Shown piece after piece: positions 7,581 through 32,404 of a stretch of 32,532 bases of DNA. The notes below the pieces were generated by a model that worked only from the letters and a program-made list of their open reading frames with translations, ran no database searches and was not told the origin of the DNA. The position numbers and the translations under genes are program-made. Positions within the stretch are counted from its first letter, which is position 1. The number at the start of each line of letters is the position of its first letter. The stretch covers positions 1 through 32,532 of the forward strand of contig JAHJUF010000050.1 of the NCBI GenBank assembly GCA_018829095.1, given 5' to 3'. The stretch is from Pseudomonadota bacterium (GTDB taxonomy: Bacteria; Desulfobacterota; Desulfobacteria; Desulfobacterales; Desulfatibacillaceae).

Positions 7581-8012
7581 TTACATGGTGTATAGGGTTT
7601 CACCCTTGATGACCGAAAAACCTTTTTCGGTGAGGGCGAGCACGGCCTGGTCCGTATTGTCGAAACGGAAGATCATGACCGCATTGTCCTGCTTCTGGCG
7701 CACGAACGCGTACATGTACTCCACGTTGATCTTGGAAGTCTGGAGAAACTCGAGAATTTCATGGAGCCCGCCCGGCCGGTCAGCCACTTCCACGGCCACC
7801 ACCCGGGTCTTGCGGACCGTGAAACCGGCGTCCTTCAGGGCGGAATCGGCCTTCCTGTTGTCATCCACGATAATGCGCAAGATGCCAAAATCCGAGGTGT
7901 CTGCCAAGGACAGGGCTCGGATGTTCACCCCGGCCTCGGCGAGCACCCGAGAGACTTCGGCGAGCCGGCCGGACTTATTTTCCAAAAAAACGGAGATTTG
8001 TTCCGCGAACAT
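7581..8012 (-). CDS. Tandem ACT domain amino-acid-binding protein (copy 1)
   Basis: A 143-residue, two-ACT-domain protein. ACT1 starts ISVFLENKSGRLAEVSRVL and ACT2 starts VEVADRPGGLHEILEFL. It matches the second copy at 1062-1493 closely over the first domain (NIRALSLADTSDFG is shared). It sits between paaK (42 nt upstream) and livK (31 nt downstream). The close paaK-ACT pairing, present twice in this operon, suggests it senses an amino acid related to the PaaK pathway and modulates the enzyme or the transporter. That role is inferred. Confidence 0.87.
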   Translation of the reverse strand: MFAEQISVFLENKSGRLAEVSRVLAEAGVNIRALSLADTSDFGILRIIVDDNRKADSALKDAGFTVRKTRVVAVEVADRPGGLHEILEFLQTSKINVEYMYAFVRQKQDNAVMIFRFDNTDQAVLALTEKGFSVIKGETLYTM

Positions 8013-8054
8013 GATGCCTCCCTTGCCTGGATGTTGCCGCCAGGCACCGGACGG

Positions 8055-23888: not shown

Positions 23889-24226
23889 CCTCTCCTCCTC
23901 TTGGATTGTAGGCGGCGTAAACGGGTTCCGGAATTCAACGATGGTGGAGGAATCCGGGAGGGCCTTTCTACCGTCAGCGGTCCTTTCCCAAAATAAAATA
24001 GTCTAAAAAAAATCGACTACAGGGTCAAGATTTCTCTCTCGACCGTTTTCTCATCTAACTAGAACAGTTAGGAACTATATATTTACTGAGTTGGCTAAAA
24101 AAAAGTAAAGACCCCCTTGACACCCATGACGCGGTGCGTCATATTGGGGGTCGGAAAATGGGCGAGGAGGATGTCCTTACGGAAGAACGTTTCATACCGA
24201 CCAACCGAGAAAGAGGAGGATGAACC
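23889..24226. other. AT-rich divergent region between pgpA and the phasin-like gene
   Basis: 338 bases without a gene. The middle (about 23985-24115) is AT-rich, with an inverted repeat CTAACT-N5-AGTTAG (24055-24071). An A8 tract (24097-24104) could act as an UP element for the phasin promoter. The promoter with its internal operator-like dyad lies at 24117-24145. Confidence 0.55.
24117..24145 (+). promoter_or_regulatory. Phasin promoter with operator between -35 and -10
   Basis: TTGACA (24117-24122) is a perfect -35. CATATT (24140-24145) is a 4/6 -10 at 17-nt spacing. The spacer is filled by the perfect dyad ATGACGC-GGT-GCGTCAT (24126-24142), whose right arm runs into the -10. This layout is typical of repression by a TetR-type dimer. 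An outer GACCCCC/GGGGGTC pair (24110-24116 and 24146-24152) extends the symmetry. A start near 24152 gives a 75-nt untranslated region. Confidence 0.65.
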
Positions 24227-25035: not shown

Positions 25036-25075
25036 AAACAAAAGCGCCCCCTTTCGGGGGCGCTTTTGTTTTTCC
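25036..25075. terminator. Bidirectional terminator after the phasin-like gene
   Basis: AAACAAAAGCGCCCCC (25036-25051) pairs perfectly with GGGGGCGCTTTTGTTT (25056-25071) around a TTTC loop. The 16-bp stem is flanked by A and T tracts. It separates the phasin-like gene from the convergent epimerase gene. Confidence 0.92.
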
Positions 25076-27639: not shown

Positions 27640-30600
27640 TTAGCTTGAAGCCAGTAGGAATTCTTCTAGACCTGCCTTATTTAATAGTTTCTCGATATAC
27701 GTTGTCTTATCGTCCCATTGGAAGAGGACATTGTGCTGTTCAAACTGTTTCTTGTCCAGACCTTCCTCCCACCATGCTATTTGCTGGAAAGGCGTTCTGG
27801 AGACGATAAAGGAATCCAGCACCACGCCAGGATCACCCAGGCGGCTTTCCAATTCCTTGATGGTTTGGGAAAAGCGGATTTTGGGGTCGTTCAGGCCATC
27901 CACGTTTCGCAGGCCCTTGGGATCAATGAAGTTGATCCGTTGGGAGCCATTGGCGACAAGCCACAAAATGAAGTCCGGATAGAAGTTGCCCGCCTCAAAA
28001 AAGCCGATGCCACGGCCACGGGACATGTTGCGCAAAAGGTAAAGCTCCTTTTTCTCGAATTTCGGTTTGTTGCTCTCGTAGTATTTTCGCAGGTCTATGA
28101 CAAAATCCCGTTCCCCTTCATTTAGCACCACAGGCTTAACATCAATAAGATCGTTATTCACATACAGAAGCGGCTGATACAGGTGCTGACCGAACATTAT
28201 AGAATGAAATCCATGGAACTCGACATCTGTTAACGTACCGCTCTGAATCATGTTTTTCAGGGCATTAAGGCTTGAGATAATTGCCTCTCTGGATTTCTCT
28301 ATGTAGCATCGATATTCATCAATAAAATTTGGATCGTTTTCATCCAATTCGCGGTATTCCAAATGCTTGTTCTCGTATTCGGCCCTCTTGTGATTGTAGT
28401 AACGGTCACAATACTTTTTTAGCAGCGAGACAGCAATTTCATGCCATTGCCTGACCTGTTCGAATGTTCGCAGCTCCATTTCTTCCTCTGGTATCTGGAG
28501 ACGGTACCAATCGCGGCTTTTTAGAAGAGCGGCTATTTCCTCCCTGGACAGGTTCAGATTGTATAGATTTTTCTCGTATTTGAACTCCTGCATGGCAAAG
28601 TAAATGGCATCCATATCCATGAAGGCCAAGTGCTTTTCTTCTATCCAGTTATTCTTTTTTTGGGCTTGCTGAGGCATCATCTGCCCCTTGCCGCTAACCA
28701 TGGCCTGAATTTTTGGATACCAGTCCAGCACTATCGGGTATTTCTTGAGATGGTCGTCTGGCAAGCCAAGGGTGGGCTTGGGGCCTTGCCTCTTGAAATC
28801 CACGCCTTCTTTCAAGCGGACGGTCTTGAGCTTTTGGGTGCCCAGGTTCTTGATCACCGGCAGCACGATTTCGATGCGGTCCTCGTTGGACGGCAGGCCC
28901 TCATCCTCCAGGTACTCCTTGAACTGGCGCATATAATCGGCCCGGACGCCGAAAATGTTCAAGGTCTCCAGCTTATCGATGTCGCTGGGTGCTGACCTGC
29001 CCAAGGCTTCCCGGGTACGCTTGAGGCAAAAATCCTTTCCCTTGAGCCTCACCCCCCGCCCAAAAAGCTGGATGATCTGAGCTCCCTCTTTCTTGCCGAT
29101 GTTCATCAAGCCCATGGTGGAAACCCGCCAACTGGACCAACCCTCGGAAAATTTCTTGGAACCGACCAAAAGGTTTACCCTGGAGGTCCTGTCGTTCAAC
29201 CCACGGAACAGGGAACCGGAAAACTCCCGATCCCCCACCACGAGTTCCCTCTGTTCCTCGCAAAGCTTACAAAGCTTGGGAGCATCACCCACGTTGATGA
29301 CTCCGAAGGGTTCATTGTCCCCCAGGCGCAGGGCAATTTCCCCATCCGAACCCTTGAGGTTTTCCACGTGCAGGGCCGCTGGATTCTTGGCGTTAAAAAG
29401 AACCGCAAAAACATCCTCAAGCAGCTTTTCGGGGTCCATGCGGGTCTTTACAAGATAGGAAAAAGCCGTGGAGAACAGGTCGTTTCCTCTTGCATCCAGC
29501 AACCCGGAATCTCCGGCAAGGAATCTTTCGATCAGGGTGAGAACTTCTTCCCGGTTCCTGGGGGCACTGAAATGGGCCAGAAACAGGAGGATGTCCACCA
29601 CGTCGGAAACCTCCCGCCCGCCTTCTGTCCGCACGGCCGTGACTTTGCCTCCCACGAAAATCCACAAGGGTTTTTCCAGGAGAAACGGCGCGTATTCCCG
29701 CTCCTTGTCCTGAAAAAGCTTCTGCTGCTGGTAAAAGGCCAACAGGCAAGCCATGAGATATCGTTGCCTGTAATTATTGGCGTCTTCCTGCAAGTTCAGA
29801 ATCCGGTAATCCTTGCCGTACCCGTCCCCATAAAAGTATTTGTAGGAGTAATCGAACAGGATGCTCTTGGCGTAGGTCTGTTCCAGGTCTTTGTTGCCGG
29901 ATGCCTTTATGGCCTGTCCGAAGGTGGCGGAGTATTCAAAGGAAAACCCCACCTCGCAAAGATCATTTCGCCTATCCATCCACACGCCGGTTTCCTTGCC
30001 CGCCGTCCCCCGGTGCCCCTCGTCCACCAGGACCAGGTTGTTGCCCTCAAAGGCTTTTACGTCCACCGTCTTTTCGCCTGACTGTTCCCGCAGCTTGTGG
30101 ATGTCTATGATCTGGATGTTGTTGGTGGTGAATAGGCCGCCGCCGTCCTTTTGGAAAAGTTCCGCCGGGATGCCGGAAAGGGCGAACTCCTCCTCATGCT
30201 GGCGGCTCAATCCCTCGTTCGGGGTCAGAAGGATGATGCGGTTCAGCTCCCTTTCCCGTCCGTGGAGGGCAAGGTAATACCGGTACTGGAGAATGTTCAC
30301 GTGCATCAACAGGGTCTTGCCGGACCCCGTGGCCATCCAGAAGGCCACCTTGTTTAGCTCCTTCTGGGTGAAGGGTTCCACCTGGTCCCGGGGTTCCTTG
30401 TCCTGGTTGAATTCCTCCACATGCAGGTTCAGGGCATGAAGCAGCTTTTCCGGGTTGCGGAAGTACCGGTCCAGATAGATTTCCGCGAACAGGAGGGCCA
30501 GGTACTGGAAATACTTGGGATAGAGGGTGTGCCCGAAATGGTTGCGTTTTTCCGTGATTCGCTTCCAATGGCGGACGATGTTGTCGTCATAGCCCAGGAG

Positions 30601-30837
30601 CAGGTCACGGGGGAGTTCCTTCCGGTCAAAAAGCCGGGCGATCAGGACCTGATGAAAGCGGCTTACGTTGTTTTCCGCAAAGCCTTCCAGTTCCGGGATG
30701 GTGATCCCGTCGGCAAGCTCTTCCAGGCTGTTGACCTCGAACAGGGAAAGCATCCACTGGTGGAGGACCAGCTTCTTGTCGAATTTCAGGGGCGGGGCCT
30801 GGTTCCTGGTCCGGCCGCCTTGTGTTCTGGGGGGCAT
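27640..30837 (-). CDS. res: Type III restriction enzyme, Res subunit (helicase-nuclease)
   Basis: A 1,065-residue SF2 helicase with C-terminal nuclease. Walker A is ATGSGKT near residue 169, motif II is LVLVDEGH (DEGH rather than DEAH), and motif III is EYSATF. The later helicase motifs are KKFSEGWSSWRV and QLFGRGVRLKG. The PD-(D/E)xK nuclease is near residue 960 (YPDFILWL, then NFIDPKG). Type III Res acts with Mod to translocate and cut DNA between two unmethylated head-to-head sites. It starts 10 nt after mod. The C-terminal third (27640 to about 28640) is clearly more AT-rich than the helicase part. All catalytic motifs are intact, so the subunit looks functional even though mod does not. 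Confidence 0.9.
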   Translation of the reverse strand: MPPRTQGGRTRNQAPPLKFDKKLVLHQWMLSLFEVNSLEELADGITIPELEGFAENNVSRFHQVLIARLFDRKELPRDLLLGYDDNIVRHWKRITEKRNHFGHTLYPKYFQYLALLFAEIYLDRYFRNPEKLLHALNLHVEEFNQDKEPRDQVEPFTQKELNKVAFWMATGSGKTLLMHVNILQYRYYLALHGRERELNRIILLTPNEGLSRQHEEEFALSGIPAELFQKDGGGLFTTNNIQIIDIHKLREQSGEKTVDVKAFEGNNLVLVDEGHRGTAGKETGVWMDRRNDLCEVGFSFEYSATFGQAIKASGNKDLEQTYAKSILFDYSYKYFYGDGYGKDYRILNLQEDANNYRQRYLMACLLAFYQQQKLFQDKEREYAPFLLEKPLWIFVGGKVTAVRTEGGREVSDVVDILLFLAHFSAPRNREEVLTLIERFLAGDSGLLDARGNDLFSTAFSYLVKTRMDPEKLLEDVFAVLFNAKNPAALHVENLKGSDGEIALRLGDNEPFGVINVGDAPKLCKLCEEQRELVVGDREFSGSLFRGLNDRTSRVNLLVGSKKFSEGWSSWRVSTMGLMNIGKKEGAQIIQLFGRGVRLKGKDFCLKRTREALGRSAPSDIDKLETLNIFGVRADYMRQFKEYLEDEGLPSNEDRIEIVLPVIKNLGTQKLKTVRLKEGVDFKRQGPKPTLGLPDDHLKKYPIVLDWYPKIQAMVSGKGQMMPQQAQKKNNWIEEKHLAFMDMDAIYFAMQEFKYEKNLYNLNLSREEIAALLKSRDWYRLQIPEEEMELRTFEQVRQWHEIAVSLLKKYCDRYYNHKRAEYENKHLEYRELDENDPNFIDEYRCYIEKSREAIISSLNALKNMIQSGTLTDVEFHGFHSIMFGQHLYQPLLYVNNDLIDVKPVVLNEGERDFVIDLRKYYESNKPKFEKKELYLLRNMSRGRGIGFFEAGNFYPDFILWLVANGSQRINFIDPKGLRNVDGLNDPKIRFSQTIKELESRLGDPGVVLDSFIVSRTPFQQIAWWEEGLDKKQFEQHNVLFQWDDKTTYIEKLLNKAGLEEFLLASS

Positions 30838-30847
30838 GGCCGGTTCC

Positions 30848-32404
30848 TTAAATCACATCACGGGTGTCGAACATCAGGCGGGAAAACTCCTGCTCGATGA
30901 GGCGGACCTTCCAGGTTTGGTCTTGCCGCCGGAGGTTTTCCAGGTTGTTGTCGCCGTTGACATAGATCAGATCAAATTCCATGTCCTGGGTGTTGTATTT
31001 TTGCTTCTGGAACCATGCGTCGAGCTTGCCGGAGTCCATTTCCTTCACGTTGCGCCACAGGACCAGGACCCGCTCGCCTTGGCGATTTTCGCCTTCCACC
31101 ACCCGGACGCAGCGAAGGGTGTCCATGTGCCGGACCGTGAGGCCCAGCAGGTAATTGAAGGTTTCCACCAGGTCCACGATGGTGGGTTTGGTTTCCCCGG
31201 CGGTCCCCGTGGCGATGTGGAGCTTGCAGTTGAACGGGTCCTCGAACATCTCCACGTTCAGCAGGCTGTCCCGGGTCTCCGTGTCCAGCATGTAGGAGAG
31301 CATGTAGGATTCCCGGAAGGATTTGGAGAGGCCCAGGGCGTCGTCCAATTCCTTGGGGCGCTTGGGCGTAAGGTTCGCCAGGGCGTCTTCGTAGGATTCC
31401 AGGCGTAGGTACTTGAAGCAATGGGATATGCCTGTGCCCCGCGCCGTGGGCTTGCCGTCTTTCCAGGACTCGGAATAAACCACCTTTTGGATACGTGGTT
31501 TAAGTACCGTGTCGAAATAATCACCCATTTCCACGAGAATGTATTTTCGATTACCTTCATCCTCGCGATTGAGGCTTATAACGGCATGGCCCGTTGTTCC
31601 GGTACCGGCAAAATAGTCTAACGTTATTGAATTTGAATCTGCACCACATGCATACAGGCAATCAATTACAGCAAAAATACTTTTTGGGTATGAAAAATCA
31701 CTATTTCCACCAAGTATTTCTTTTAATACTTTGGTTCCACTTTCACTGGCGGAATATTTTGGATCACCCCACCATGTTCCGGGCAAAACACCAGATTGAT
31801 TTGGACGATATTTCCGGTATATTTGCCATGATCCATTTGCCCTTTTCGCTTCCAGCAATTCACCTTTTTCATCATTAGCTCTTTTCCATCCAAGGGCCCA
31901 AACCCGTTCTACTCCATTTTCATCTATAGGAAAAACCTCTTTACATCCAACAGGAATGCTATCGGGAACCCATGATTTATTTTCATCATTCCAATTAAAT
32001 TGTGGTATTATTATGTTTCCATTATTTTCTACATAAATGGGATAGAATAATTTTGGTCTATTTTCTCTCCAAGAGTTTGCCCCGGTAGCCCGCAAATTTG
32101 CCCAAGCAAAGAAACCAGTCGTATCATTATCTTTGTATCTCTCCATCTTTTTTTCATCTCTAGGCAATCTACCAACATTCGCCTCTTTTGAGGCCCCGAA
32201 AAAAATTGCATATTCATGATTTGGCGAAAACCCAGACGGGACAGCTCGACCTTGTGGCTTACTTCTTATGCAAGCAGTAGCAAGGTAGTTTTCATAGCCC
32301 ATGGACATGCCCATCAGTTGATGCATATATACATATTCATAATCATCAATAGTTGCACAATAAATAGATTGATTGCATAATAAATCTAATGAGTGTCTGT
32401 CCAA
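30848..32404 (-). pseudogene. mod: Type III DNA methyltransferase Mod, N-terminally truncated
   Basis: A 518-codon frame matching the later part of a beta-class type III Mod. SIYCATIDDYEYVYMHQL (residues 13-30) is the region just after the catalytic motif. The target-recognition part follows (YPIYVENNGN, FPIDENGVERVWALGW, WWGDPKYSASESGT), then the SAM-binding motif LDYFAGTGTTGHAV (262-275). In this class the DPPY catalytic motif comes before these, and it is missing. The frame begins with TTG at 32404, without a ribosome binding site, just inside a sharp base-composition change, and a stop codon lies 43 nt further upstream. Either the 5' part lies beyond an insertion or it is lost. The first 785 bases are AT-rich and the C-terminal half is GC-rich. 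Confidence 0.75.

Follow-up and report, generated by a model that had tools for sequence, protein, structure and literature searches.

A phasin promoter with a perfect dyad

The promoter of a phasin-like gene contains a perfect dyad. Which regulator might act there, and what might it sense? The gene lies in the window analyzed here, a stretch of 32,532 nucleotides from a genome of the Desulfatibacillaceae (order Desulfobacterales), for which the initial annotation had proposed a repressor site and a regulator, perhaps of the TetR family, linking PHA or acyl-CoA status to phasin level. The features of the locus are given in Table 1.

Table 1. Features of the phasin promoter and gene in the window
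Feature	Position	Strand	Basis
-35 hexamer TTGACA	24117..24122	+	Promoter scan; TTGAC(A/G) common to family copies
Operator dyad ATGACGC-GGT-GCGTCAT, centre GGT (= RNY), putative	24126..24142	+	Inverted-repeat and pattern searches
-10 hexamer CATATT, first 3 bases common with right arm of dyad	24140..24145	+	Promoter scan
Outer GACCCCC/GGGGGTC pair, judged incidental	24110..24152	+	Off-centre by 3 bp
Ribosome-binding site AGGAGG	24214..24219	+	Read from sequence
Phasin-like gene, 246 aa	24227..24967	+	PF05597, E 6e-5, 23.5 bits, under cut-off of 28.8
Terminator 3' of phasin gene	25040..25073	+	Sequence reading and computed scan

The dyad near TTGACA is indeed perfect: its two arms (24126-24132 and 24136-24142), of 7 bp each, are 100% complementary across a 3-bp loop. 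The phasin-like gene has a single strong promoter, which has a 17-bp spacer between its hexamers and had 10 of 12 promoter matches. The dyad had been described as lying exactly between the -35 and -10 elements, which holds for its start, 3 bp past TTGACA at the fourth spacer base, but not for its other end, which runs 3 bp into the -10 element so that the CAT of the right arm is the first half of CATATT. Allowing up to 3 mismatches, the combined promoter and dyad pattern occurred once in the window and in 0 of 100 shuffles. The outer symmetry also described does exist as a pair of arms (24110-24116 and 24146-24152), but its centre (24131) differs from that of the dyad (24134), so the symmetry is not concentric, and when promoters were compared by reading, the remaining dyad copies of the family showed no such arms. 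On these two grounds, a second operator formed by the outer arms was rejected.

The window phasin unit looks monocistronic. Its product shares 34% identity with a second phasin of the same genome (contig C411), which has a Lys/Ala-rich N-terminus that the window phasin lacks. PhaF-type phasins of Pseudomonas likewise have a Lys/Ala-rich tail, but in the C411 phasin it is N-terminal. Elsewhere in the window (27640-32404, minus strand), a ResIII-type helicase gene adjoins an N6/N4 DNA methylase gene, a possible restriction-modification system.

Conservation of the dyad

Scanning the source genome (3.63 Mb in 457 contigs, 87% complete) revealed 3 exact copies of the dyad, none with one mismatch and 13 sites with two; the reversed pattern, a control, matched once with up to 2 mismatches, and the chance expectation for the 14 fixed bases is about 0.014 copies. 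The exact copies precede the window phasin gene (C425), the second phasin gene (C411) and an exported FG-GAP-like gene named by eye (C276). On C411, the same promoter and dyad stand before the second phasin gene, which is followed in one operon by a PF07879 (PhaR-type) gene, the single such gene of the genome. The third copy (7998-8014 of locus L005) forms part of a dyad-promoter like the others, and since the exported FG-GAP-like protein is no phasin, the regulon may reach beyond phasins. A fourth site, on C372, with 2 mismatches and overlapping TTGACA, was set aside for want of a convincing downstream gene.

Across the family, 12 exact copies were found in 8 of 9 genomes, and the ninth (G001) carries a one-base variant at the same place. 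Ten of the 12 precede phasin genes, one the FG-GAP-like gene, and one lies at a contig end. By reading, TTGAC(A/G) was located 1-3 nt 5' of every copy, and the 3-bp centre varies freely, yet is RNY in all 12. The lack of further copies together with a lack of conservation, which the initial annotation had thought fatal to its operator idea, was thus not what we observed; on sequence grounds, the dyad appears to behave as a conserved operator, present before other phasin genes and before orthologues. Any dyad is able to form a hairpin, but that this one is a chance or structural feature (e.g., of the mRNA) serving no regulator is scarcely conceivable: the family copies are conserved while their centres vary freely, shuffling did not reproduce the pattern, and a dyad at and upstream of the -10 element would be outside the transcript. 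Conservation refutes such an origin.

In a scan of 395 genomes of the phylum, 4 of them from the family (G000, the source genome, with G001, G002 and G006), the exact dyad was found in 7: the source genome, two more of the family, and four others. These four matches have non-RNY centres, which fits background, and the occurrence of the exact dyad beyond the family within the 395 genomes fits the background level.

Farther afield, a GTDB-wide scan for TTGACNNNNATGACGCNNNGCGTCAT, with one genome per species, returned 20 stretches. In 10 of these (L045, L046, L047, L048, L049, L055, L057, L060, L061, and L062), a PhaR gene and/or a Desulfobacterota-type phasin gene comes next downstream by reading. 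In Chloroflexota, the proteins encoded downstream of two copies pass the Pfam Phasin threshold of 28.8 bits (with 49.7 and 37.9), and a further copy precedes a DUF4342 protein. The search for PF07879 took in 13 of the 20 loci and covered 12 genomes; the domain was identified in 10, among them the Blastocatellia and all four Chloroflexota. It was not found in a Thermoplasmata and a Clostridia MAG, whose dyad copies have non-RNY centres. An exception to the RNY rule is L046, a real-looking phaR promoter with the centre GGA.

PF07879 regulators of the order

The PF07879 gene was present in 7 of 9 family genomes; in the other two (G005 and G006), which have the dyad, the contigs stop right after the promoter or the phasin gene, where phaR would lie. 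Because published PhaR sites carry GCRNYGC, the PF07879 genes of the order were surveyed, and matches were found in 73 of 146 genomes. A three-residue signature divides them into classes: NRR marks the canonical S class (about 156 aa), NRK the L class (about 197 aa), and NG the G class. G427 and G434 fell outside this pattern, G427 being S by sequence and G434 (SRK) being set aside as "other", and one G match (G453:C78) scored under the Pfam cut-off. The S genes form one clade (support 97/99). Matches to the phasin-like model TIGR01837, weak and all seen under the model cut-off, were found at the C-terminus of 40 of 43 L and 9 of 10 G proteins but of 0 of 56 S proteins, and Pfam Phasin also matches 39 of 43 L proteins. 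The L form is accordingly predicted to join an N-terminal PF07879 DNA-binding domain to a C-terminal phasin-like domain. The PhaR-like protein of the source genome, which is of this form, scored 63.5 bits, below the TIGR01848 PhaR equivalog cut-off of 109.45. Residues 1-58 of its AlphaFold2 model, strands and helices, are of high confidence (mean pLDDT of the model, 76), and PDB sequence and fold searches gave no significant match.

Several neighborhoods deserve mention. L and G regulators are paired as neighbors within one cluster in L113, L122, L124, L131, and L135. In L113, L130, L133, and L135, the L-type phaR is followed by a conserved gene whose product contains an FFF(E/N/K)KLYAPEDF-like motif; Pfam gave no match for the L133 copy. 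In L122 (1800-3926) and L124 (3114-5421), a tandem pair of ArsA/GET3-like ATPase genes (by eye, P-loop) lies beside a phasin gene and a G-type phaR. ParA-like ATPase genes (by eye) occur a few kilobases from family phasin-phaR operons in L020 (9341-10102) and L028 (5472-6314), where a role in inclusion partitioning is possible.

Two probable operators for two regulator lineages

Operator sites matching at least 14 of 16 letters were sought within 1,600 bp upstream of the PF07879 genes, one L and one S gene with less than 150 bp upstream being left out. Sites resembling ATGACGCRNYGCGTCAT were found upstream of 33 of 41 L genes and 10 of 10 G genes (43 of 51 for L/G) versus none of 56 S regions, which represent 55 distinct genes; the regions are related by descent, because of which Fisher values overstate their independence. 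Means of 0.01-0.07 regions per class were obtained with 200 shuffled-arm controls, and the same search of downstream stretches gave 1 of 52 (L/G) and 1 of 57 (S). When every possible 4-bp arm (256 in all) was tested around an RNY centre, ACGC was top in L/G regions (35 of 51; next arm, 3). TGC arms were top in S regions, with TGCRNYGCA upstream of 45 of 55 (next, 14); none of the 51 L/G genes had this sequence upstream, and the arms of the window site are CGC/GCG. De novo counts of palindromes with 5-bp arms, though noisier, returned the same two cores. Eight of the 51 L/G regions have no site of at least 14 letters. Three of the eight reach 13, and those of L113, L122, and L135 belong to second regulator genes of clusters in which the neighbor gene carries the operator site.

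The geometry of the window promoter recurs at these sites. Of 64 L/G sites, 33 lie exactly 3 nt past TTGACN and 8 at 2 nt; CATATT is the commonest -10 element, found at 18 of the 33 with the 3-nt gap. Second sites, where present, are mostly 23-29 bp off. In L/G regions, 43 of the 52 ACGCNNNGCGT sites have an RNY centre. Upstream of the order's canonical S-type phaR genes (L071-L099) are sites resembling TTGTGCRNYGCACAA, a Desulfobacterales version of the published PhaR site. The dyad therefore associates strictly with L/G-type and not with canonical PhaR genes, and because the operators separate by class, two regulator lineages of one order, often of one cell, have two operators.

These results bear directly on the TetR-family regulator of the initial annotation. 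TetR operators, too, are generally short perfect dyads overlapping a promoter, which speaks for an acyl-CoA regulator of the TetR (or another) family whose control of phasins is happenstance. A Pfam scan of 20 window ORFs, however, found no TetR domain (the surroundings of the other dyad copies were partly scanned), and the dyad tracks PF07879 genes across phyla while being absent upstream of their canonical sister clade (0/55). We consider such an operator very improbable; the proposed regulator type found no support, the gene that travels with the dyad being PhaR-type.

PHA synthase, WS/DGAT, and the kind of inclusion

The core GCRNYGC, common to published PhaR sites, the PF07879 domain and the phasin targets would all be consistent with an operator of canonical, PHA-responsive PhaR by which phasin level tracks PHA granules as in Ralstonia or Paracoccus. 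PHA synthase (TIGR01836) was nonetheless over the cut-off in 0 of 9 family genomes (assemblies 83-100% complete). The best match, in the source genome (5e-48), falls within a long frame that, judged by eye, begins like a beta-lactamase. Order-wide, the synthase was over the cut-off in 60 of 146 genomes, and 31 of 58 S genes had it within 8 kb, versus 0 of 51 L/G genes; class labels in this comparison, in that for WS/DGAT and in the per-genome counts rest on the signatures NRR, NRK, and NG. Genomes with the S form had it in 52 of 56 cases, and L/G-only genomes over the cut-off in 4 of 19, with a weak match in 3 and none in 12 (for G003, G004, G007, and G008, the status in this per-genome table was taken from the family search and not the order-wide one). 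The four L/G-only genomes with a synthase speak for the canonical alternative; the synthase-free family, the gene neighborhoods, and the different operator used by the canonical clade speak against it, and we regard it as unlikely. The PHA link that the initial annotation had drawn is for the same reasons doubtful in this family.

A different enzyme adjoins many L/G genes. WS/DGAT (wax-ester/TAG synthase, PF03007) was identified in 21 of 146 order genomes; 15 of 51 L/G genes (10 genomes) have it within 8 kb, versus 0 of 58 S genes. In L113, L124, L130, L133, L135, and L181, it is oriented divergently to phasin and/or phaR and separated from them by dyads; in L131, it is downstream in the same direction. 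The L/G genes thus adjoin fat-making and not bioplastic-making genes in related bacteria, so the regulator may sense oily storage droplets, and the inclusion in some species of the wider order is probably wax ester/TAG. As the lipid enzyme of the window family, WS/DGAT was rejected: it was found in 0 of 9 genomes, and 14 control genomes also had none, yet the model matched in the order as above. Neither PHA synthase over the cut-off nor WS/DGAT was found in 12 of 19 L/G-only genomes. WS/DGAT is therefore no full answer to the type of L/G inclusion, as it is missing from the window family and from these 12.

Proposed mechanism and known systems

Promoter architecture, conservation before phasin genes, and L/G-specific association all emerge from the computations, and together they suggest that the dyad is very probably the operator of the L-form PhaR-type regulator encoded on C411, which would act by inclusion-titrated repression. 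As a dimer covering both the spacer and the -10 element, the regulator would block RNA polymerase. Once a hydrophobic inclusion forms, the phasin-like C-terminus would bind it and the regulator would leave the DNA, whereupon phasin and regulator would be made in proportion to inclusion surface. Release by the inclusion is proposed by analogy with PhaR, reported to be sequestered on PHB granules (PMC12542648), and with MLDSR of Rhodococcus jostii, described as encoded with the droplet coat protein MLDS and titrated by the lipid droplet (PMC5504291).

Comparison with these systems defines what is shared and what is not. The published PhaR motifs are NYGCRNYGCRN for Sinorhizobium meliloti (PMC12542648) and YTKNTGCRNYGCANMAR, with the core TGCRNYGCA, for Ralstonia eutropha (PMC12849132). 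PhaR of Ralstonia eutropha, Paracoccus, and Sinorhizobium resembles the regulator here in its PF07879 domain, its phasin targets, and its core GCRNYGC (PMC12849132 and PMC12542648). In the same way, the window's phasin promoter carries a GCRNYGC palindrome, and the PF07879 regulator of the genome shares an operon (on C411) with a gene that has this site as well. The canonical arms, however, are TGC...GCA, whereas those here are CGC...GCG with outer ATGA/TCAT; a single dyad here covers the spacer and the -10 element, and the regulator has a phasin-like C-terminus, falls under the TIGR01848 cut-off, and belongs to a family without PHA synthase over the cut-off. With MLDS/MLDSR, the likeness is of a regulator encoded with the coat protein and titrated by the droplet, a titration that is conjectural here; MLDSR, from another phylum, has an XRE-type helix-turn-helix and the regulator here PF07879 (PMC5504291).

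Most likely, then, the site is a genuine operator, as the initial annotation proposed at its core. It would belong to a system of known kind in which the DNA code is new, the architecture of the regulator differs from that of canonical PhaR, and the signal sensed by the L-type regulator is possibly new. More tentatively, as a bolder reading that we hold to be plausible though somewhat less than even, a second PhaR-like lineage (PF07879 plus a phasin-like domain) has an operator, ATGACGCRNYGCGTCAT, insulated from TGCRNYGCA where both coexist. The phasins under its control would coat inclusions other than PHA, of neutral lipid (wax ester/TAG) or another kind, and the signal would be the inclusion itself. 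A description of the L/G regulator paired with its operator was not found in the literature searched, a search that mostly did not reach subscription papers.

The L/G regulator is a relative of PhaR, the bioplastic regulator, that has received little study, and one order thus contains two paralogous lineages of PhaR, each with its own DNA code. The dyad and the C411 gene supply a concrete candidate regulator-operator pair for phasins in relatives of sulfate reducers that have no recognizable PHA synthase, and the L/G regulators beside WS/DGAT genes point to a lipid-inclusion sensor.
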